Shown: piece after piece, positions 30,422 to 46,356 of the stretch
Layout of the letters: each line of letters opens with the position of its first letter
Position numbering within the stretch: position 1 is the first letter of the stretch
NCBI GenBank assembly: GCA_938034445.1
Contig: CALHLD010000034.1
Location: 1-64,000, forward strand
DNA from: an uncultured archaeon
GTDB lineage: Archaea > Thermoproteota > Nitrososphaeria > JACIWG01
Length of the DNA stretch: 64,000 bases
Direction: 5' to 3'
Notes under the pieces: generated by a model
Database searches by the model: none
Told to the model about the DNA's origin: nothing
Seen by the model: only the letters and a program-made list of their open reading frames with translations
Program-made: the position numbers and the translations under genes

Positions 30422-31216
30422 CTATTGCATTTGATTAAGTTTTACTATACTAGAAAATGTTGTAAGATATGTTCCATCTTCTAAAAATAGTTTTGTCTTC
30501 TCATCTATCATGTACCTTAAAATTATTGAATTTTCAACAGCCTTATTTACAGAAATTCCTCCTACTATTCTGTTAAATGGTGGTGTGATAACGAATTTTA
30601 TATTCTCTTTAGATACGTTTCCTTTAAATTTATTTTTTAGGAAAATTTTGGAAAACTTTTCTCTATCAATTTCTCCAACAATCCATACTGGTTCTGTGAG
30701 CTTTAGTCCTGTTGTATCCTTTAATTCAATCAAGTAGTGTCCGTGTCCTGTAATCATATATTTTGAATGGATACTTTCCGGTTGTGGGAATGCGTGTCCA
30801 TGAAAGAGTGAAATATCTCCATATTTGCATTTAATAATTGCTCCTCTACTTCCAGTTAAAGTGACATTTGATGGTAGAAGTTTCTTTAACCCTCCATCAT
30901 GATTTCCTAATGTAACATTTACTTCACTAAACCATTTTTTTAATTTTTCAAAAAATACTGTTATCTGATATAAGTCGAAGTTGGATGCTGTTGCAATCTT
31001 ATGTTTAACGTCACCGAGTATATATAGTGTTTTCGTATTCGTTTTTTTCCCCAAATTTATGATCTCTTGTGCTAAGATTGACGCCCTTTCTGGCACATTC
31101 GCACCCTTTTTAATAAGTTCAACTTCATAGCCTAAATGTATGTCTGAAATCACAAGAATTTTTCTTTTACAATTCAATAAGACAGCATGTTCTTTAAACA
31201 ATATTTTAACATCCAA
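30422..31216 (-). CDS. Archaeal metallophosphoesterase (Lhr-associated type)
   Basis: A 264-residue calcineurin-like phosphoesterase. Metal ligands appear in order: SDIHLG (about 24-29), GDVKH, GNHDG, HGHAFP and GHGH. Archaeal proteins of this type are often encoded near large Lhr-type helicases, and here the helicase lies two genes upstream on the same strand. This supports a nucleic-acid phosphodiesterase or repair role rather than a metabolic phosphatase. It is convergent with ecfT, with three bases between stops. Confidence 0.85.
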   Translation of the reverse strand: MDVKILFKEHAVLLNCKRKILVISDIHLGYEVELIKKGANVPERASILAQEIINLGKKTNTKTLYILGDVKHKIATASNFDLYQITVFFEKLKKWFSEVNVTLGNHDGGLKKLLPSNVTLTGSRGAIIKCKYGDISLFHGHAFPQPESIHSKYMITGHGHYLIELKDTTGLKLTEPVWIVGEIDREKFSKIFLKNKFKGNVSKENIKFVITPPFNRIVGGISVNKAVENSIILRYMIDEKTKLFLEDGTYLTTFSSIVKLNQMQ

Positions 31217-31288: not shown

Positions 31289-31984
31289 TTATTCTTGTTT
31301 CGAAATTAATGGAAATATTTCTGAAACAATATACATTGATAGTTCTGGGATATCAATTTTAGTGAAAGAGACTACAATACCGTTCCTCGTGAACCCGACT
31401 ACGTATCCGAATTTCTTAGACCTTGTTACAAGATACCAGAGCTTACCATGAGTGAGATATTCTCTGTAAAGTGAAGTGTTTGCGAGGCTTGAGCCATATA
31501 GTGAAAGTTTGTTGATGTTGGGAATGTCTACGTCGTCAAAGAATAAGACTTTAGCATCCTCCATATGCTCTTCATGATACCTTCTAATAGTTTCTGGGTC
31601 GATTCTTGCCTCCAGAATCTTTCCTGGAACCAAAAAGATTATTTTGCTAAGCTGATTTGCAATATTATTTGCTCTCTCCTTTTTTTCATAAACTAAAAGA
31701 AAAAGTCTACTATTTTCATGAGAATGAAATTCAAAAATTGTTTCATATGTTCTCGGAATCAATTTCATTTCACCTCTACTTGGTACATGAAATGGTATAT
31801 CATAGCAATATGTGCCCCTTAACATTTTTCCAGTGATTTCAAGGTCCTTTATCTCGTTCGCTAACTCTATTTTCTGTTGGCCTTCAGTGTACTCGTTAAC
31901 AACTTTAAACCCCTTAAGTTTTAAAGCCAACTCTTCAAATGTAATAAACTCTTGCGAAACAAATATTTTGCAGGCTAGAACCAT
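31289..31984 (-). CDS. Uncharacterised protein between Lhr helicase and metallophosphoesterase
   Basis: A 231-residue soluble protein that I do not recognise. It has no membrane segment or signal peptide, and no P-loop. Visible features are mixed alpha/beta content, a HVPSRGEMKLIPRTYETIFEFHSHEN stretch with clustered histidines and acids, and ARIDPETIRRYHEEHMEDAKVLFFDDVD. Its position between the helicase and phosphoesterase genes, all on the minus strand with gaps under 75 bases, suggests a partner in the same process. That is inference from context only. Confidence 0.7.
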   Translation of the reverse strand: MVLACKIFVSQEFITFEELALKLKGFKVVNEYTEGQQKIELANEIKDLEITGKMLRGTYCYDIPFHVPSRGEMKLIPRTYETIFEFHSHENSRLFLLVYEKKERANNIANQLSKIIFLVPGKILEARIDPETIRRYHEEHMEDAKVLFFDDVDIPNINKLSLYGSSLANTSLYREYLTHGKLWYLVTRSKKFGYVVGFTRNGIVVSFTKIDIPELSMYIVSEIFPLISKQE

Positions 31985-32021: not shown

Positions 32022-34871
32022 TCAAATAAACCTTTTCTTAAGATTTCTTTTACTCACTTCTATAATTCTGTTTACAAGTTCATCCGACAAAATCTTATGC
32101 TTTTCCAATATTTCTTCTACATCCTTCAACGTTAAGGTAGGCTCTGCTAGCACAAACGATGCTATACCACCATATTTCTCAATAACTTGAGCTGTTTTCG
32201 TAATCCTTCTGTAGATTCTTTTTAATTGTTTAGGCGGCTTTGCCGCCCCCAACCTCATCCTATGTGCCAATCTTTTAATTTTCTCCTCATCTTCTTGAGA
32301 CAATCCAATCTTTTTTGACTCACACTTTGGACAACTTATTCCATAGAGCAAGTTTTTTACTCTAAAATTTTCTACGTAATTCCAGCATTCTGTGCACACC
32401 ACTGTAAAGGCTTCCTCTAAAAGTCTTGCTCTCACAACCTGCACTATAATATGTTTCAGCCTTTCTGGGGGCACAATCTCCGTTCTCCTACTTAACTCTT
32501 CAATACCAACCCTTGCTATTGGTGAAAGCTCCTCTTCCAAAACAGTTTCTAACTTAATTTCTTTAGACCTTATCATTTCAAGCACCTTTATAGAATTTTC
32601 TATATCTGTTTCACTTCTTAAGGTACTTCTTAAAGCCTCTTCTATTACAGCCGTATCCTTTAATGCCTCCATTAACTTCTGTATTGAAATATCAGAAAGT
32701 GTTGCCTCCTTTGATATTGCACCAAACTTTTTTGCAACATTAACAAAATGTCTCTTAAATATTCCTGAGCCAAGCAATTCTTTCCTAACAATCTCTTCCA
32801 GTTGCTGAGGTTCAATGCCATTTAATGCGTCTACCACATCTTGTTGTGTAAGCCATGGTGCCCTCAAAATAATCCGATATGGGTCAAATTGGACTCCAAC
32901 AGGGTACCCAAACCTATTAGATAGTATGTAAGATAGTGCTCTTCCCAAAGTTCTGTTTACTAGATGCCCCCAGCAACATTGTACTATAATAAATTCTTTC
33001 CACTTTTCTATCGTAACAGTTTTATCTGTGGGTACTGGAAAACCTTTTTCTATATGCTCAAATATCTCTTTTAAACCGTATTCACATTCATTGGGGGGAA
33101 TTGAATATTCTTGACATATTAGGCTTACTATTTTTTCTTTACCAATACTTTTATGATAATATTCCTCTACTCTTCTTCTTAATATTCCGACTTCCTTCGC
33201 GATCTCATATGGTACAGGAATTTCTTCACCGACCCAAAATGGAATCGCGCCCGACGGATCATCTTCCGGTCTAACATGAACTTTTCCATCAGAAATATTC
33301 TCAACCCTCCAGATGGCTCCTCTTAAAATAAATTTTAGGCCAACTTCACCATATTCGGTTACAAAACTTTCATCTAAAGTTCCAACTGGCTCACCATTTT
33401 CGTCTATAACAAGATAATGCTTTTCTTCAGGTATCATTGAAAGTGTGTTGAAATAGTATTGGTAAAGTGGTCCAATCCTTAAAGGTTTTCTAAAGTTGTT
33501 GTCTAAAACCCTTGCAAGAGGCGGTCTCCTTTCACATAAGTACCTTAAAACCATCATAAATTCTTCTTTAGTAAGATTTCTATAAATAAAAGACCTTCTA
33601 ACTAGCTCGAAGACGTCTTCTAAACTTAGTTTATGTCCATCTAAAAGTATTCCAGCTAACTGGTGTGCTAAAACATCCAGAGGCTTGTCTATGACATGCG
33701 TTTTCTCTAGAACCCCCTCTACAGCCCTTCTAGCTATTATAACAGATTCCCAAAAGTCGTCAGAATCTTGAGTTACTATGATACCCTTTGCCACCATACC
33801 AATCTTGTGACCACTTCTTCCAACTCTCTGAACAAGTCTGGTAACCTGTCTTGGTGAATTATATTGTATAACTAGATCAAGCCTACCTATGTCAATGCCC
33901 ATCTCAAGAGAGCTAGTGCAAATTATACTCTTTAATAGGCCCTCTTTCAATTCCCTTTCTGCCTTAACTCTTGAAGATTTAGATAGTGAGCCATGATGAA
34001 CAGATATTGGAAATTCGCTTTCCCAGACCTTAAATCTACTACCAAGAATCTCGTTTTCTATTCGTGTATTTGTGAATACAAGTGTAGAGTTATGTTCTTC
34101 AATCAACTTCCTTATTAACCTAAGACGGGCTACAACCTCTGGGAACATGAAAAGCTTTGATGCGAGAAGGTAGTCTTGGGGTTGAGGCCGTGGATAAACT
34201 ATTTCAACCTTAAGCTGTCTATCAATTCTAACATCTATAATCTTGCAGCCTCTATCTGTTCCAACAAGAAATTTTGCAACATTTTCAGGCGAACCTACTG
34301 TAGCGGATAATCCAATTATTTGAAAATCTTCACCAACGTTTTCTCTTAAACGTTCTAGACCAAGAGAAAGCTGTGCCCCCCTTTTGTCTTCAGCAAGTTC
34401 ATGAACTTCGTCAACGATAACCCATTTTACAGCTTTCAAATGTTTCCTAATTCTCTTTGCTGGAAGTATTGCCTGAAATGTTTCGGGTGTAGTTATTAAT
34501 ATGTCTGGTGGTGCAATAGACTGTTTACTTCTTTCTAAAGTGGTTGTATCGCCATGTCTTACAGCCAACTTTAAATCAAACCTTTTACACCACCACTCGA
34601 GACGGTCAAGTAAGTCCCTGTTTAACGCCCTTAATGGCGTTATATAGAGTAGTTTGATGCCTGGAAACCTTTCCTGGGAAATGATCTTGCTTAAAATTGG
34701 TAGAAAGGCTGCTTCAGTTTTACCTGTCCCTGTTGGTGCGACAAGCAAAACATTTTCTCCGCCTAATATTTGTGGAATCGCCCTAGTCTGAGGTTCAGTT
34801 GGTTCTCTAAACCCGAATTCTTCTATAGCCTTTTGTACTGTTGACGGAAATAGCTTAAACACATTTTCCAT
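32022..34871 (-). CDS. lhr: Lhr-type DEAD/DEVH-box helicase
   Basis: A 949-residue superfamily 2 helicase with the Lhr-core layout. Two RecA domains are followed by a winged helix, a beta-sheet bundle and an Lhr C-terminal domain. Motif I is APTGTGKTEAAF (about 43-54), motif II VDEVHEL, motif III LSATVG and motif VI QRVGRSGH. Near the C-terminus are two Cys pairs, C-x2-C (VVCTECW) and C-x2-C (SCPKCES), that should bind zinc. Lhr proteins unwind RNA:DNA hybrids and branched DNA in repair. It leads a same-strand group with the 231-residue protein and the phosphoesterase. Confidence 0.94.
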   Translation of the reverse strand: MENVFKLFPSTVQKAIEEFGFREPTEPQTRAIPQILGGENVLLVAPTGTGKTEAAFLPILSKIISQERFPGIKLLYITPLRALNRDLLDRLEWWCKRFDLKLAVRHGDTTTLERSKQSIAPPDILITTPETFQAILPAKRIRKHLKAVKWVIVDEVHELAEDKRGAQLSLGLERLRENVGEDFQIIGLSATVGSPENVAKFLVGTDRGCKIIDVRIDRQLKVEIVYPRPQPQDYLLASKLFMFPEVVARLRLIRKLIEEHNSTLVFTNTRIENEILGSRFKVWESEFPISVHHGSLSKSSRVKAERELKEGLLKSIICTSSLEMGIDIGRLDLVIQYNSPRQVTRLVQRVGRSGHKIGMVAKGIIVTQDSDDFWESVIIARRAVEGVLEKTHVIDKPLDVLAHQLAGILLDGHKLSLEDVFELVRRSFIYRNLTKEEFMMVLRYLCERRPPLARVLDNNFRKPLRIGPLYQYYFNTLSMIPEEKHYLVIDENGEPVGTLDESFVTEYGEVGLKFILRGAIWRVENISDGKVHVRPEDDPSGAIPFWVGEEIPVPYEIAKEVGILRRRVEEYYHKSIGKEKIVSLICQEYSIPPNECEYGLKEIFEHIEKGFPVPTDKTVTIEKWKEFIIVQCCWGHLVNRTLGRALSYILSNRFGYPVGVQFDPYRIILRAPWLTQQDVVDALNGIEPQQLEEIVRKELLGSGIFKRHFVNVAKKFGAISKEATLSDISIQKLMEALKDTAVIEEALRSTLRSETDIENSIKVLEMIRSKEIKLETVLEEELSPIARVGIEELSRRTEIVPPERLKHIIVQVVRARLLEEAFTVVCTECWNYVENFRVKNLLYGISCPKCESKKIGLSQEDEEKIKRLAHRMRLGAAKPPKQLKRIYRRITKTAQVIEKYGGIASFVLAEPTLTLKDVEEILEKHKILSDELVNRIIEVSKRNLKKRFI

Positions 34872-36297: not shown

Positions 36298-36870
36298 CTA
36301 ACTCTCAGAACTTTCTTTTGCGGGCGCTGCAAGCATTAAATTTAAGAGTGACTTCAGGTCTACTTCCACAAGACTTCTCCATCCCAATGAAAGCATTTCA
36401 CCTTCCCTATTCAAGTAGCCCTTTCTTATAAAACGTCTAATGTTCCATTCCACTCTCCATTTTGGAAGTTTTTCCTTAAGAAGTCTCTCAACCTCATTTA
36501 TTGGAGCTTTTCCATGTTTTGCTGTTAAATAGCTTAATATGATAGTTAGTGCAGCCATGTCATCAACGCTCATTCCAGATGCTGAAGCGTCCCTTAAACT
36601 GAGACTGTCCTTAAAGATCACATAATATCTGGCACTCTCAGCCTCCTCCCCTACTGCTGGTGCTAATATTTCTCCGGACTCATTCACAACCTTTATGGTT
36701 AAACCTATTCTCTCAAGTTCTGACGAAAGCACTTCTAAAACTTTTTTATAATCTTTTCCAAGACTTCTTTTTAGCTCCCATCCTTTAACGCCAGGCGCCC
36801 TAACTTTAGGCAATAGTAGAAGCTGCAAAGCTTTCCTAACTTTTATCTTCATCTCCTCTTCTGAACTCAA
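36298..36870 (-). CDS. Kite-type tandem winged-helix subunit of an SMC-like complex, Nse3/MAGE-like
   Basis: A 190-residue protein. The N-terminal winged helix (about 8-55: KVRKALQLLLLPKVR, ELKRSLGKDYKKVLEVLSSEL) is followed by a linker with a strand (RYYVIFKDSL). A second winged helix (about 105-175) shows AALTIILSYLTAKHG, INEVERLLKEKLPKW, NIRRFIRKGYLNREGE and LGWRSLVEVDL. The order and spacing match the MAGE/Nse3 homology domain, which ends with a 'YL...GPR' region, better than bacterial ScpB. That is my visual comparison, not a search result. The TTG start overlaps the kleisin stop (TTGA), so translation is coupled. It is last in the operon nuclease-SMC-kleisin-Kite. Confidence 0.65.
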   Translation of the reverse strand: MSSEEEMKIKVRKALQLLLLPKVRAPGVKGWELKRSLGKDYKKVLEVLSSELERIGLTIKVVNESGEILAPAVGEEAESARYYVIFKDSLSLRDASASGMSVDDMAALTIILSYLTAKHGKAPINEVERLLKEKLPKWRVEWNIRRFIRKGYLNREGEMLSLGWRSLVEVDLKSLLNLMLAAPAKESSES

Positions 36871-37631
36871 TGTTTCTCACCTAACTTTTGTATTGAAATT
36901 GCGAGGGATCTAGGTTGCCTTTTTTGTCCTCCTTTAACGATCTCAATCTTTTCCTCTAGTGGTTTTATCTCTAGGCTCACGTATCCCATTGAAATTATGT
37001 GCGCTAATAGCACTGCTCTGATTATTGTCTCATTATAATCTTTTCCTTTAACAATTTTCCAGTAATCCACTCTTTCTTCAGCCTCTAAAATTTTATCAAG
37101 TTCCATGCTCAATTCTTCAAGCCTCCTATTTAATTCCTCTTCTGTCAAAATCTTCATTTTCAAAAGTTCTTCTTTGTCTAAGGTTGAAAGTTTAGTTTCT
37201 TCGACAAATTCCTCCCTAAACCTTTCTGAAAGTGGTAGTAGTGCATTCCAGTAGTTTGCTGCACGGATCATCTCATTTAATGTTACCTGTTCTATCTTAA
37301 CTATAGGATGCCAGCTTCTTGAAAATATTTCAGCCAATCTTTCAGGCGATAACGTAAGTATCTTTAGTTCGACTATAAGCGGGTCAACATAAAGCGATGA
37401 TGCCTGATACCTGACCCATTTTTCTTGCAGTTCAACTATTCCGGCTAGCAGTCTTAAAGCTTCAGCGTCCATTAAAATTTCATCCAATTCTTTTAGATTT
37501 GGTAAAAGTTCCTTTAGCCTTAGAACATATTCTTTGACATCAACCTTGAATGGGTCAAGGTTTAAACCTATAACTTTATTTAAAATTTCAACTATCTTAA
37601 GAATTTTTTGAACCCTTTCACTTTCTTGCAA
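36867..37631 (-). CDS. Kleisin-like (ScpA/Nse4-type) subunit of an SMC-like complex
   Basis: A 254-residue, mostly helical, acidic protein. The N-terminal helices (about 1-60) could contact the SMC neck. The middle has EALRLLAGIVELQEKWVRYQASSLYVDPLIVELKIL, resembling the ScpA helical segment. The C-terminal part (about 208-245: NETIIRAVLLAHIISMGYVSLEIKPLEEKIEIVKG) looks like the small winged helix by which kleisins cap an SMC head. The start TTG lies 14 bases inside the SMC gene and the stop overlaps the Kite gene. Sequence similarity alone is weak; gene order makes the call. Confidence 0.65.
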   Translation of the reverse strand: MQESERVQKILKIVEILNKVIGLNLDPFKVDVKEYVLRLKELLPNLKELDEILMDAEALRLLAGIVELQEKWVRYQASSLYVDPLIVELKILTLSPERLAEIFSRSWHPIVKIEQVTLNEMIRAANYWNALLPLSERFREEFVEETKLSTLDKEELLKMKILTEEELNRRLEELSMELDKILEAEERVDYWKIVKGKDYNETIIRAVLLAHIISMGYVSLEIKPLEEKIEIVKGGQKRQPRSLAISIQKLGEKH

Positions 37632-39633
37632 TTGAGCCTACACCACTTTTTCCATCAACTATTTGAGTGACAATATAGTTTACATTGTCGCCGTATACGT
37701 TAACTTGGCTTGGTGTTATCACAATATACTGTTTTGGTTCATCTTGAACCATTTGAAATATTGCCCTAAACATTCTTTCCCTGTTAACTGGGTCCATGTG
37801 CACATCAAATTCGTCAACTGCAACGATGGGTGATGCTGAAAGCTTTTGGAGTGCAAGAAGGAAGGCAATTGTAGCGGTACTCCTTTCACCGCCACTTAAT
37901 GTATAAGCGTCTAAGACAGCTGGCTTCGCTCCTCTGAATCCTATTAAAAGTTCAAGGCCTGATTTCTCAAAGTCTTCCTCATTAGTTAATCTAATATAAC
38001 CGTATGCGTTTAACCCTCTTAGAAGCTCCTGATATTTTGGGTTGACAAAATCCAATATCCTGTAAATTTCATCATGCCAGACTTTCTTTCTTTCTTCAAG
38101 CTCCCGTAAAACTACTTCTTTATTTTCTAGAACTTTTTTAAGCTTTTCCTCTAGTTCCATGTACCTTGAATAATATGTTTCAAATATGTTTTTTGCTTCA
38201 TCTGGGACATCCGAATATGTTTCAAGTTGAGCGTTTATGGAAGAAAGTTCACTTTCTATATCGTTTAACTGCCTTACTGTAGGCGGTCTTGGTTCCATTG
38301 CCTCTTTTTGTTTTTCTAAATTTTCTAGTTCTTGTTTTAGCTCATTTAGGTTGCGTTCAATTTCAGCAACTTCTTTCTCGTGAACTCTTTTTTGATATGC
38401 TTGGAGTGTAGCATTCGCTTTTTCCTCAGAATATTTTCTTATCAAAGTAAATAGGCCTTCTTCGATTTCTGTAATAGATTTTTCAATCAAATTTATTTCA
38501 TACACTATTTCATGAACTTTCTTGGTTTCTACATCAGATTCCCTCTTGTAACCTTCTAAAAGTATTTCAATATCCTTCTGTAATAATCTTATATCCTTAT
38601 TGTCTTCCTTTATTTTCTGTAAAATATTGTTCAACTTAGACAAGATGTTCTCGAATGAAGTCATCATTTCCGAAAGTGATTTAATTCTAGACTCTACTGC
38701 CTTTTTGTCAGCATCTAAAAAGATAAGAGAATGGTAACTTTTCTTAAGCTTGTTAAAATTAGAATACATGTCCTTTTCTAGTAGGCTACATTTTTCCTCT
38801 GACAAAAGCAGTTTCCTAGAAAGTTCACTTAGCTCCTTTCTCTTTAGCTCAAGCTTATTTGAAGTCACCTCTATTCCTTTTTCTAATTTTATAACTTGAG
38901 CCCAAAACTTTTCTCTTAATAGGCTGTCTCTTTTAACTATGAGCTCCTGTTTCTTCACATATCTGTCATAAACGTCTTTCCAGTGAGAGAGCGTTTCTTT
39001 AGCCATGTCCATAAGCTGCTTTATGGCCGTTTCCTCGCTAACTAAGCTCTTCAACTTATTTTGCGATTCTATAATCTTTTCCCTATAACCTGTCAAACCT
39101 ACAACTTCCTCAACCATCTTCAGCTTATCTTGTGGACTTACTATAGCAAATTCTTCAACCATTCCCTGATGCATTATAAGGAGCATGTTGTCTGGATTAA
39201 TGTTAAAGCTTGAGAGAATCTCTCTAACTTCAGAAGACGTTGTCTCCTTGTAGTCTATTTCAAACCAGTATGATCCATCTTTTCTCAAATATCTTGAAAT
39301 CATAAACGTATCAGAGTGTGAGAGAGGTATTGGTCTTTTCCCGTTGAAGCTACTGTTATCAAAGACTATTGTTACACGTCCAAGGTCCTTACCTCTTCTA
39401 ATAAGGTCACTTAACCTTCTAGATCTTTCTGTATAAACTTGTCCAAGTGCAACAGAGATTCCTAAAAGTATTGAAGACTTTCCAGAACCGTTTGGCCCAC
39501 ATATTATATTCAATCCTCTCGTTAGGGGAATTCGAGCATACTCGTATGACATAAAATTTTCTAAGATAACTTCACGAATGTATGTTAACGGTCTTCTTCT
39601 TGTATCCAATATCTTTTCTCCTGATTGCAACAA
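37618..39633 (-). CDS. Short hinge-less SMC-like ATPase with Smc5/6-type head motifs
   Basis: A 671-residue ABC-type head with a coiled coil. Walker A is GPNGSGKS (46-53) after an NFMSY N-terminus, and the Q-loop has HQG at 155-157. Coiled-coil segments cover about 165-515 with a break at EPRPPTVRQ (447-455). The signature is LSGGER (579-584), and Walker B plus D-loop is VAVDEFDVHMDPVNRER (604-620). DEFDV with 'MD' is Smc6-like, while 'MDP.N..R' is Smc5-like. No 150-residue globular hinge and no CxxC zinc hook can be found, and the protein is about half canonical SMC length. It overlaps the kleisin gene and lies 44 bases after a RecB-type nuclease gene. Likely a DNA-tethering or repair ATPase. 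TTG start. Confidence 0.85.
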   Translation of the reverse strand: MLQSGEKILDTRRRPLTYIREVILENFMSYEYARIPLTRGLNIICGPNGSGKSSILLGISVALGQVYTERSRRLSDLIRRGKDLGRVTIVFDNSSFNGKRPIPLSHSDTFMISRYLRKDGSYWFEIDYKETTSSEVREILSSFNINPDNMLLIMHQGMVEEFAIVSPQDKLKMVEEVVGLTGYREKIIESQNKLKSLVSEETAIKQLMDMAKETLSHWKDVYDRYVKKQELIVKRDSLLREKFWAQVIKLEKGIEVTSNKLELKRKELSELSRKLLLSEEKCSLLEKDMYSNFNKLKKSYHSLIFLDADKKAVESRIKSLSEMMTSFENILSKLNNILQKIKEDNKDIRLLQKDIEILLEGYKRESDVETKKVHEIVYEINLIEKSITEIEEGLFTLIRKYSEEKANATLQAYQKRVHEKEVAEIERNLNELKQELENLEKQKEAMEPRPPTVRQLNDIESELSSINAQLETYSDVPDEAKNIFETYYSRYMELEEKLKKVLENKEVVLRELEERKKVWHDEIYRILDFVNPKYQELLRGLNAYGYIRLTNEEDFEKSGLELLIGFRGAKPAVLDAYTLSGGERSTATIAFLLALQKLSASPIVAVDEFDVHMDPVNRERMFRAIFQMVQDEPKQYIVITPSQVNVYGDNVNYIVTQIVDGKSGVGSIARK

Positions 39634-39677
39634 TAGAGCTTATACAATATTGGTCTTAAAAGTTTAATTTTTTCTCT

Positions 39678-40376
39678 TTAACTTTTAGCTTCAAGTCTTT
39701 TTTGAATACTTTTAATATTTTTCTGTATGCTCTTAAAAGCATTAACCATTTCCATAAAAAATAGTACTCTTTTAGCCTGTTTCTTCATACCCTCGTATCC
39801 TTCAGTTTTACGTAATATCCCCTTCTCTCTCATTAAAGAAAGATGTTCTCCCAACTTTTCTAAGCTAATGTTTAAGCTTTTTGCACATTTGTCGAAAGTT
39901 TCTTTTTCAGAAAGTGCTTTAAGAATCTTTAGCTCCTTTCTAGTTATGTTTTCGAAAACAGCTAAGCTTACTAACCCATATTCTTCTAACACATCCCTTA
40001 AAGCTTCTCTAACAATATAATCTAAGTCTTCAGGCTCTATTAGATAATAGTAGTCTGGAAACAAAAAAACTTTTACTTTAAGTTCTTCAGCCAAAACTTC
40101 TGTAGCTTTGTCAGCATAACCTTTACATATGATCAGAGGCTTTAGTTTAAGCACCATAGAATTTGCGTAAGCTTGTCTCACATCACTTACCCCAATTCTT
40201 CCTGCTTTAACTTCAACACAGTATACATCCCCACTTTCATCCTTTGCTATAAGGTCTACTTCAAAAACCTGTGTTCCATTTAGTACAATCTTCTTGTTCT
40301 TTTCCAAAATTTGAAACCCCATCTTTTTAAGAATACTCTTAGCTATCCTTTCACTACTTATACCTCTTCTGGACAA
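39678..40376 (-). CDS. RecB-family (PD-(D/E)xK) nuclease with winged-helix C-terminus
   Basis: A 232-residue protein that leads the SMC operon. The nuclease core reads FEVDLIAKD (E39, D41) and YCVEVKAG (E55, K57), with a downstream QAYANSMVLK helix carrying the motif Gln. From about 155 the protein is helical and like an ArsR/MarR winged helix (TRKELKILKALSEKETFDKCAKSLNISLEKLGEHLSLMREKGIL), then ends in a basic amphipathic helix. A TTG start at 40376 follows AAGGAG at a good distance. I infer that it cuts or processes DNA handled by the SMC complex; no experimental basis is known to me. Confidence 0.82.
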   Translation of the reverse strand: MSRRGISSERIAKSILKKMGFQILEKNKKIVLNGTQVFEVDLIAKDESGDVYCVEVKAGRIGVSDVRQAYANSMVLKLKPLIICKGYADKATEVLAEELKVKVFLFPDYYYLIEPEDLDYIVREALRDVLEEYGLVSLAVFENITRKELKILKALSEKETFDKCAKSLNISLEKLGEHLSLMREKGILRKTEGYEGMKKQAKRVLFFMEMVNAFKSIQKNIKSIQKRLEAKS

Positions 40377-42683: not shown

Positions 42684-45506
42684 TTAACAATATCTTCTTA
42701 TACTAAGTATTTCTTTGTAAAGGTTATCAAGTATTTGCTGATAATCCACTTTACCTTCCTCTATCGAATCCATGATCTTCTTTAACTTTTTTGTAGTTTC
42801 TTCTGAAATAAATTCATAGAATCTTTTGTTTAGGTAAAAGTATACTTGATACCCTTTCTTTGTTGGAATTATATCCCTTCTATCGTTCTCCTTCACATAT
42901 CCTCTTTGAAAGAGGGTTGTAACAATTTTTGCATATGTTGATGGCCTACCGATATCTTTTTGTTTCATTAACTTTATTAGGTCTGATTGCTTTAAAAGTG
43001 AGATTGTCGGCGCTTTCCAACTTCTTATACTTACAGCCTTAAATTCTCCTTCATCCACTTCCGGAATAAGACTTATCTTTTGGACAAGATTGAATCCTTC
43101 TTCCAATATCCTTATGTAGCCTTCAATAAACTCAATCTTGTTGTTAAATCTAATCTCATACCTTTCTTTTAGCACCTTTACTTGTTTCATTTGGCTTGCT
43201 ATAAATCTTCTAAATATTTGATCATACAGCTGAAGGTGTTCTTGTGTGAGTTTTTTCGCAAGCTTTATGCTTCCTAGAGTAAGCATATGCTTTAATCTTG
43301 TAGCGTCAATTGGTCTAGTTGGCCTTATACATTCGTGAGCACCCTCCTTAGACCATTCTCTTGGCTTAAAGAAGGTTTCATTAAATTTGTCAACTATATA
43401 CTCTTTTGCAACATTTTGTCCAGTAGGAGAAACTCTTATGCTATCTGTTCTATGGTATGTTATTAATCCTAATTCGAATAAATCTTGTGCAATACCCATA
43501 GTCTTGTGTACGCTAAACTTTAATGCAATAGCAGCCTCTTGGAGTAATGTGTCTGTAGAATATGGTGGTGGTGGATTAATTTCTATTTCCTCCTTAGACA
43601 TGCATCTTACATGATATTGTGTCGTGCGCAGTTTTTCAACTTCCTCCTTAACAGCACTATCCTCTATTAATGGCTCTTTTACAATAAATTCCAGTCCATT
43701 TTCTAATACTATTTCAAAGAATGTCTGGAAACTTTTTCTAGATTCATTTGCTCGATTAATAATCCATCCTAGAACAGGTGTTTGCACTCTTCCTGCTGAA
43801 AGTGTCTTATCGTTAAACCTATCCCAAAGTTTTGCGCTCAACTCGAAACCTAGCCATCGGTCTTCGATTCTTCTAACCATCTGTGCCTCTACAAGTCTCA
43901 TATCCATATTTCTCATGTTTTTTAACCCATTCACTAAAGCTCTTTTTGTTATTTCATGAAATTCTATTCGTTTTATTTGCGATGTGTATGGTGAGAGTAC
44001 TGTTGCTATATCCCATCCTATCTTTTCTCCTTCGGCGTCTGCGTCTGTACCTATTAATATTTGGTCTGTTTCTAGCGCAAGTTTTCTTAAAGCTTCAACT
44101 ATCTCGGCTTTATCAACTAACTCTTTTTGACAATATGGACACTTTTTCACGGGTCTAGTGAAAGTCTTTTTGCATTTTCTACAAACTTTTATAGTAATGT
44201 ACGATGGTACAAATTTTCCATTTAATTTTATTACACCATGTACACTATTCCTTCCCAAATCGTATGTAGGTAAATCGAAAATATGTCCTCCACTTGCAGT
44301 TATGTTAAGAATATAATCGCCTGTACTCACCTCATAAACTGTTAAGCTGTTAACTATTCTTTTACTCGGTTTTCCAAAGAATCTTGCAATCGTTTTAACC
44401 TTGTTCGGTGATTCGACAACTAAGAGTGCCGTTGTTATAGGATCTTTAAATTGTGGGCTTATTGTGCCCGCCATAAGCATTTTTATTGTAGCCCTATCTC
44501 TGTCAACTTCTTCCAAAATTTCATTTAAGTTTACTTCATTAAAATTTTTCCACTCTATTTCTTCAGAAAATAGTCTAGATTCTTTAACGAGTCCATTAAA
44601 TGCTTTTTTATCATCAACAATTGTGACAGAAATTCCTTTTGAAATCCCTCCAATAAACATTCTTGATGTTCTTCCTGAAGCCTGTATATATGCTACAGTA
44701 TCGGGTACAACCAAAAATGGTTTATCTTTTTCCGAACTTATCGTTATATTCGGAGAAGATCTAACTTTTTCTATAATTTCTTTCTTTGACAAAAGTTCTA
44801 TAAGAAACATTCTTATCTTTTCTAACTTTTCTTTTATTGCACCCTTATAGCCTTCAAGTCTAACGTTACTATACATTGAATATAAAATCTCTTTTATAAC
44901 ATTAGATGGCACTTGATGTAATATGTTCCTTAATTCGATAATATATTTTTCAATAAGCGCCTGTTCCTCCTCTCCCACAAGTTCCTTTAAATGTGAAAGT
45001 AGGATTATAGCACGGGTTGGAGTGAAATCCTTTTCCATATCAAGGCTTATCCTAAATTTAGGTACTCCCGCAAATATAGCATACCTTATTGCATGCGGTA
45101 AATCTATTCCTCTTGCAAGAGGACTCCTATAGGATGCAATTCCAATTAAAAGCTCAACCTTACCTGAAGAAAAATCTTCTAAAATTCTAGCTTTAGCCCT
45201 ATTATATAATGAAACACTAAATTTTTCTTTCAATAATCTCTCATATAATCTTTCAGCAAATTCTAGACCTTTATCCATTGGCACAAATATGATTCCACCA
45301 GAGCCGAGTAGCCTAACAAGTTGCACAACCTTTTCTTCAACATCTTCATTGTCTTCAACAAAAAGGTCTTCTATATTTCTAATAAATTCTATCCTGGACC
45401 CGATTTCGAAGCCCATGAGTTCCTTAAACAACTTTATTCTCTTAGTCCTTTTTGCTCTCGGAGACGCACCTGACACTATAATATTTCCAACCCTTATACT
45501 GTTCAC
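42684..45506 (-). CDS. rgy: Reverse gyrase, C-terminal part (second helicase domain plus type IA topoisomerase)
   Basis: The 940 residues from GTG 45506 hold the second RecA-like domain (LIGIASYRSPLARGIDLP, ASGRTSRMFIGGISKG), a Toprim domain (LLVVESPNKVKTIARFFG, GTDADAEGEKIGWD), a zinc finger (CRKC, CPYC), RRIEDRWLGFELS and LSAGRVQTPVLGWII. The topoisomerase active-site Tyr is in LITYHRTDSIRVSPTG. This frame is open to 45656 and its upstream codons (IIAQGLRLIELRREYQKNLKKGG) continue the protein, so GTG 45506 is internal, not a real start. Joined to the N-terminal part by one base skipped at about 45633, the protein would be about 1,220 residues, normal for reverse gyrase, the hyperthermophile enzyme that introduces positive supercoils. 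Confidence 0.9.
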   Translation of the reverse strand: MNSIRVGNIIVSGASPRAKRTKRIKLFKELMGFEIGSRIEFIRNIEDLFVEDNEDVEEKVVQLVRLLGSGGIIFVPMDKGLEFAERLYERLLKEKFSVSLYNRAKARILEDFSSGKVELLIGIASYRSPLARGIDLPHAIRYAIFAGVPKFRISLDMEKDFTPTRAIILLSHLKELVGEEEQALIEKYIIELRNILHQVPSNVIKEILYSMYSNVRLEGYKGAIKEKLEKIRMFLIELLSKKEIIEKVRSSPNITISSEKDKPFLVVPDTVAYIQASGRTSRMFIGGISKGISVTIVDDKKAFNGLVKESRLFSEEIEWKNFNEVNLNEILEEVDRDRATIKMLMAGTISPQFKDPITTALLVVESPNKVKTIARFFGKPSKRIVNSLTVYEVSTGDYILNITASGGHIFDLPTYDLGRNSVHGVIKLNGKFVPSYITIKVCRKCKKTFTRPVKKCPYCQKELVDKAEIVEALRKLALETDQILIGTDADAEGEKIGWDIATVLSPYTSQIKRIEFHEITKRALVNGLKNMRNMDMRLVEAQMVRRIEDRWLGFELSAKLWDRFNDKTLSAGRVQTPVLGWIINRANESRKSFQTFFEIVLENGLEFIVKEPLIEDSAVKEEVEKLRTTQYHVRCMSKEEIEINPPPPYSTDTLLQEAAIALKFSVHKTMGIAQDLFELGLITYHRTDSIRVSPTGQNVAKEYIVDKFNETFFKPREWSKEGAHECIRPTRPIDATRLKHMLTLGSIKLAKKLTQEHLQLYDQIFRRFIASQMKQVKVLKERYEIRFNNKIEFIEGYIRILEEGFNLVQKISLIPEVDEGEFKAVSIRSWKAPTISLLKQSDLIKLMKQKDIGRPSTYAKIVTTLFQRGYVKENDRRDIIPTKKGYQVYFYLNKRFYEFISEETTKKLKKIMDSIEEGKVDYQQILDNLYKEILSIRRYC

Positions 45507-45612: not shown

Positions 45613-46356
45613 CTAAGCCCTTGAGCTATTATTTTCTTCTGAAAAACCTGCCAAACTTAGCACTTTATCAACATTTTTTGACGATTTTAATAGTGCGTCA
45701 ACATCGTCTACCACAATTAAATCGAAAATATCTCCATTTACCATTTCAAAGTTTTTTGAAAGGAAGGCTGATGTTGTAACCAATATGTGATACTGTCTAC
45801 TAATAATCGTTTCTTTCTCCAATTCCTTTTCCTTTTCACTTAACATTGAATGATATCTTGCAATTTTTACTGTCGCCCCAATTTTTTCTAAAAATGATAT
45901 AATTCTTTGATAAGTTTGTTCTGCTAAAATTGCAGTTGGAACAATTATGTAGCATTTTCTGTTTTTTAGAGCATAGTAGAGTGAAAGGATTATTCCAAAA
46001 ACACTTTTACCCATCCCTGTTGGAGCTATAATTGCGAAATTTTTTCCAGAAAATATTCTTTTAGCCCACGTTCTCTGGGCACTCCAAAGCCTACTTCCCG
46101 TAGTCTTGTAAAATAAATCATTTAACTCCTCTAACTGTATTTCAATTTTGTATAAGCTGTGCAAATTTTTTAACGAACCATGCTCTTTCAAGATTTCTAA
46201 AATATATGATAGTGTGTTTTTTCTGTCTCTTATAAGTTCTAAAATTTTTTCATCAGGTAAAGGCAAACATTTTTCACATGGAACTTTTAAAGAGAGTCTA
46301 TAATCGTTTATATCGTCTCCACAGTTTGGACAAAGTTTTAGAAAGATAGCTTTCAT
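45613..46356 (-). CDS. rgy: Reverse gyrase, N-terminal part (zinc finger and first helicase domain), frameshifted
   Basis: The 247 residues start at ATG 46356. A zinc finger (C9-x2-C12 and C27-x2-C30) is followed by the helicase gate with RLWSAQRTWAKRI (Q-motif-like), Walker A APTGMGKS (111-118), VPTAILAEQTY and Walker B LIVVDDVDALLKSS. The last eight residues (after FSEE) are out of register with the family, and the frame stops at 45613. The continuation lies in the frame of the 42684 gene. One extra A in GAAGAAAATA (45639-45630) is the simplest cause. If the sequence is right, this is a split helicase half-domain. Nanoarchaeum has a split reverse gyrase, but there the break is between the helicase and topoisomerase modules. 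Confidence 0.88.
   Translation of the reverse strand: MKAIFLKLCPNCGDDINDYRLSLKVPCEKCLPLPDEKILELIRDRKNTLSYILEILKEHGSLKNLHSLYKIEIQLEELNDLFYKTTGSRLWSAQRTWAKRIFSGKNFAIIAPTGMGKSVFGIILSLYYALKNRKCYIIVPTAILAEQTYQRIISFLEKIGATVKIARYHSMLSEKEKELEKETIISRQYHILVTTSAFLSKNFEMVNGDIFDLIVVDDVDALLKSSKNVDKVLSLAGFSEENNSSRA

Follow-up and report, generated by a model that had tools for sequence, protein, structure and literature searches.

A conserved archaeal operon encoding a predicted hinge-less Smc5/6-like complex

Does a compact gene cluster in an uncultured archaeon encode an SMC machine with its own nuclease, built for repair or for defence against foreign DNA? The question was raised by four minus-strand genes in the window, a stretch of 64,000 nucleotides (contig CALHLD010000034.1, positions 1 to 64,000). 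The original prediction described these genes as a RecB-type nuclease, a hinge-less SMC, a kleisin-like and a Kite-like protein, and inferred a compact Smc5/6- or Wadjet-like DNA-entrapping machine. We confirm that the genes, their strand and their spacing are as it described them, with overlaps of 4 bases (Kite/kleisin) and 14 bases (kleisin/SMC) and a 44-base gap between the nuclease and the SMC. Its interpretation is only partly supported, since three of the genes form a conserved unit of Smc5/6 type while neither the nuclease as a subunit nor the Wadjet-like reading finds support. The features are as follows.

36298..36870, minus strand: Kite protein (190 aa), predicted tandem winged helix, Nse1/Nse3-like
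36867..37631, minus strand: Nse4-like kleisin (254 aa), predicted N-terminal helical bundle and C-terminal winged helix
37618..39633, minus strand: short, hinge-less SMC ATPase of the Smc5/6 lineage (671 aa)
39475..39498, minus strand: Walker A of the SMC (GPNGSGKS, residues 46-53)
37885..37899, minus strand: ABC signature of the SMC (LSGGE, residues 579-583)
37792..37821, minus strand: Walker B and D-loop of the SMC (AVDEFDVHMD, residues 605-614)
39678..40376, minus strand: PD-(D/E)XK nuclease with a C-terminal winged helix, a lineage-specific neighbour outside the conserved unit
32022..34871, minus strand: Lhr-type helicase (DEAD/WH_Lhr/DEAD_assoc), a conserved neighbour in Nitrososphaeria
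31289..31984, minus strand: conserved protein of unknown fold (p231), a candidate accessory factor
30422..31216, minus strand: calcineurin-like metallophosphoesterase (PF00149, E 4e-7), neighbour of Lhr and p231

Conservation and linkage of the three genes

Relatives of the SMC are encoded in 332 stretches of the genome contigs searched, which makes a chance reading frame untenable, and the best 80 of these come from Nitrososphaeria, Bathyarchaeota, Hecatellales and ANME-1/Methanosarcinales MAGs. Of 70 loci with enough downstream sequence, 59 carry SMC, kleisin and Kite tightly adjacent in this order, one has them split, and ten, all ANME-1 or Methanosarcinales, lack the two partners next to the SMC. 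In one Hecatellales MAG (locus L057, 6133-8883) about 2.7 kb separates the SMC from kleisin and Kite. The ANME-1/Methanosarcinales loci L058, L059, L062, L067, L069, L071, L078, L080, L081 and L098 have the SMC gene apart from a kleisin-Kite pair elsewhere. In 10 of 11 genomes searched from that group (one of them, L095, with adjacent genes) kleisin and Kite are nevertheless present, side by side. The SMCs sampled from this group nest inside the other archaeal sequences, which suggests gene transfer.

In 250 genomes of the phylum, the SMC was found in 114, the kleisin in 113 and the Kite in 113. SMC and kleisin agree in 245 of these genomes (both in 111, neither in 134), and of the five exceptions four are less complete assemblies (70-78%) while the fifth has a truncated SMC frame. 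The two co-occurrence counts were 111/3/2/134 and 110/4/3/133. The Fisher p of 1e-64 overstates independence because related genomes share ancestry, but the splitting of the genes in ANME-1 with retention of all three is a separate argument for one complex. The distribution is near-fixed in whole families rather than patchy, and near-complete genomes of one large family in the same class (f3, including genomes G006, G009 and G012) lack SMC, kleisin and Kite together, a clean concerted absence. As a rule there is one such SMC, one kleisin and one Kite gene per genome, and second matches are pieces of the same gene. Co-occurrence with the SMC gene in other genomes and the presence of winged-helix or kleisin folds, here judged from predicted models, had been set beforehand as conditions for the prediction, and both came out in its favour.

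The nuclease behaves differently. It carries E9, D41 and E55-x-K57, read from the sequence, and matches UPF0102/YraN and Mrr_cat, so that RecB-type is a loose wording for a PD-(D/E)XK nuclease. It lies beside the SMC only in the window's genome and one congener, and it is absent at the same locus in another member of the same family (L022). Homologues with 38-40% identity occur in family f5 (genomes G010, G013 and G040) and lie away from the SMC in the two where this could be checked, G010 and G013 (in G010 at 0.90 Mb, with the SMC at 1.24 Mb). Co-transcription in this genus is plausible, but the nuclease is not a conserved subunit.

In Nitrososphaeria the operon commonly lies beside the Lhr-type helicase and near the metallophosphoesterase, a linkage that for Lhr is mostly confined to this class. 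Lhr proteins are tied to DNA repair (PMC8301817). The highly conserved p231 is, in most relatives, encoded divergently upstream of the SMC gene, in about 40 loci across Nitrososphaeria, Bathyarchaeota and ANME-1. It co-occurs with the SMC in 101 of 114 genomes but is also found without it in 13 genomes, which makes it an associate rather than an obligate subunit. Searches for a Pfam family, a fold or a PDB relative of p231 gave none. Scans for promoters and terminators, which use a bacterial model, gave only chance numbers.

Kinship of the three subunits

The SMC matches PF02463 (E 4e-36), and Walker A, the signature SGGE and Walker B are invariant in an alignment of 62 homologues (G46, P47, N48, G49, G51, K52 and S53; D607, E608, D610, H612 and D614). 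No SMC_hinge match and no CxxC zinc hook was found in any of the 62. The distance from Walker A to signature is 430-558 residues in these homologues against 985-1043 in canonical archaeal Smc proteins, about half, and the arm tip, where a hinge would sit, is the least conserved and gappiest part of the alignment. When the PDB was searched with the family profile, the ten best sequences were all SMC6 or SMC5 (222 to 186 bits; SMC6 222, SMC5 202), ahead of SMC2 (175) and archaeal Smc (172). A tree of 418 head columns with Rad50 as outgroup places the short SMCs with SMC5 and SMC6 (98/94), apart from canonical archaeal Smc with SMC2/3 (97/90). The eukaryotic rows of this tree were read from PDB alignments; for SMC2 and SMC3 a query sequence served only as bait, and the PDB entries that it found supplied the rows. 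The AU test rejects an exclusive clade of short plus archaeal canonical SMC (p 0.0001) but does not quite reject short plus canonical plus SMC2/3 (p 0.08), and SMC5 and SMC6, which are long branches, do not necessarily form one clade. Discrete features agree with the tree: most homologues have QSGGE[RK] (57 of 62) and SPFR ... DEFDVHMDxxNR ... ITP as in SMC5/6 (DEFDVxMD in SMC6), where canonical archaeal Smc reads [LI]SGGEK ... FYLxDExDAxLD ... [TS][LF]K.

The original kleisin and Kite calls rested on weak similarity and gene order, and both are upheld, since profile search, fold prediction and co-occurrence agree. For the kleisin, the best PDB matches of the profile are yeast Nse4 (E 3.4e-4) and human EID3 (0.005), an Nse4 paralogue, followed by archaeal ScpA (0.03). 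Pfam Nse4_C is matched by 33 of 50 members (best E 5.4e-6) and ScpA (PF02616) by none. Most of the Nse4_C matches lie below the curated cut-off of 26 bits, the individual scores shown being just below it while covering nearly the whole domain, and the window's own kleisin has no Pfam match. The AF2 model, of moderate confidence (pLDDT 76, pTM 0.36), shows an N-terminal helical bundle with a long third helix and a C-terminal winged helix. The first two Foldseek hits are Nse4, followed by cohesin, condensin and ScpA kleisins, and the winged helix overlays that of ScpA with TMt 0.79.

For the Kite, a profile search of the PDB found no relative by sequence, and only fold comparison was informative. 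The AF2 model (pLDDT 83) is a tandem winged helix whose best Foldseek hits are Nse1/Nse3 (E 8.9e-6, TM 0.58). The six matches with E below 0.001 are Nse1/Nse3 or MAGE proteins, with MukE coming later. Pfam MAGE was matched by 3 of 48 members and ScpB (PF04079) by none.

The same genome keeps a separate operon with a full-length 1178-aa Smc, a 213-aa protein in the ScpA position (assigned by position and sequence, as PF02616 did not reach threshold) and ScpB. Profile comparison of the kleisin and Kite with the genome's own ScpA and ScpB found no match, and the short SMC system is therefore additional.

An Smc5/6-like reading and its alternatives

The best explanation, to which we assign a probability of about 0.82, is a second archaeal SMC complex of the Smc5/6 lineage, a housekeeping, ATP-driven DNA clamp. 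What the analysis shows is the gene arrangement, the ATPase motifs, the absence of a hinge or zinc hook from the 62 homologues, the co-occurrence and the resemblance of the subunits to those of Smc5/6; the folds of kleisin and Kite are predicted, and assembly, contacts, DNA entrapment and function are inferred, with co-occurrence as indirect support. In this view two copies of the short SMC would bring their heads together on ATP, and the kleisin would bridge one SMC neck and the other SMC cap through its two terminal domains. The Kite, probably a dimer, would sit on the middle of the kleisin and with the heads form a clamp around DNA, as Nse1/3/4 do in Smc5/6. Without a hinge the arms cannot close a ring in the usual way, and closure should depend on heads, kleisin and Kites, or on a non-conserved contact at the coiled-coil tips; the complex may act as a head-proximal clamp, or dimerise through those tips. 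The likely role is chromosomal maintenance rather than plasmid defence, as inferred from the Smc5/6 kinship, the wide near-fixed distribution within lineages, the absence from mobile elements and the linkage to an Lhr helicase and a phosphoesterase. Repair or the handling of replication forks and junctions is only slightly more likely than not, with general chromosome organisation as the main alternative. The system is Smc5/6-like and not strict Smc5/6, the genome-guarding complex of our own cells, which has two different SMC subunits, two different Kites and a hinge where the archaeal unit has one SMC gene, one Kite gene and no hinge.

The alternative that survives best, though unlikely, is a shortened second copy of the condensin-type Smc-ScpAB system that has lost its hinge and resembles Smc5/6 through convergence or long branches. 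It is left some room by the AU test (p 0.08), by a single-sequence search that ranks Pyrococcus Smc first and by the weak resemblance of the kleisin to ScpA. However, all three subunits prefer Smc5/6 partners, and neither the ScpA and ScpB families nor the genome's own ScpA and ScpB are matched.

A Wadjet-like defence machine, in which the nearby nuclease cuts foreign circular DNA detected by the other subunits, is more doubtful still. The four genes do share one direction of transcription here, and the SMC shows weak similarity to LmuB and JetC models, as any SMC head would. Against this, searches with defence models gave no match to JetA, JetB or the Toprim nuclease JetD, and viral contigs and plasmids hold no close relatives. 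The confined linkage of the nuclease, the near-fixed distribution and the resemblance of kleisin and Kite to Nse4 and Nse1/3 also speak against it. Membership among the archaea-specific SMC-related proteins (ASRPs; coalescin ClsN, Sph), to which the original prediction alluded, is very improbable in spite of similar length (about 600-700 aa) and archaeal distribution, since the zinc hook found in nearly all of them is absent, the ASRP model (NF045487) scores 82.5 bits against a cut-off of 300, and ASRPs show no consensus of flanking genes (PMC9389158) whereas kleisin and Kite are fixed partners here.

That archaea have an SMC clustering with SMC5/6 has reportedly been proposed (Yoshinaga and Inagaki 2021, cited in PMC9389158 and PMC10003631), probably for the same or overlapping proteins. 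A 2023 review lists only Smc-ScpAB and MukBEF/MksBEF/Wadjet as prokaryotic Kite-based complexes (PMC10512200), and a study of archaeal Smc found complexes lacking Kites (PMC7055376). In the papers searched, which do not cover the whole literature, we found no description of this operon, of its missing hinge, or of an archaeal Nse4-like kleisin or Nse1/3-like Kite. Smc5/6 is the one eukaryotic SMC complex with Kites, and little is known about where the partner proteins of eukaryotic SMC complexes came from (PMC10003631). An archaeal unit whose SMC, kleisin and Kite all match Smc5/6 would date the whole core to archaea and provide a minimal, possibly thermostable version to reconstitute. The lack of a hinge makes it testable whether the hinge is needed for DNA clamping, loop extrusion or ring closure, and two SMC complexes in one archaeon allow a clean comparison of Smc-ScpAB with an Smc5/6-like machine. 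A bolder possibility, as likely as not, is that the operon is the archaeal sister, or surviving form of the ancestor, of the eukaryotic Smc5/6 core, with its three components together before eukaryotes. It would then work as a DNA clamp or motor without any hinge, showing the hinge to be dispensable in a true SMC-kleisin-Kite machine.

Other SMC genes and a split reverse gyrase

Some Bathyarchaeota encode a further SMC-like protein on the opposite strand a few kb upstream of the operon (loci L063, 667-2775; L084, 2133-4226; L086, 1-604), and the one scanned (L063) has a zinc-hook match (Rad50/ASRP-like). A small contig of the window's own MAG (L114, contig C37 of genome G000) carries a bacterial-type SMC and an AtpB-like ORF and is probably contamination. 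Within the window, reverse gyrase is split into two minus-strand ORFs, at 42684-45506 and 45613-46356, that match model positions 266-1172 and 3-232, respectively. The congener has one intact 1221-aa ORF at the corresponding place (L214, 1847-5512), so the split is a frameshift or an assembly error.
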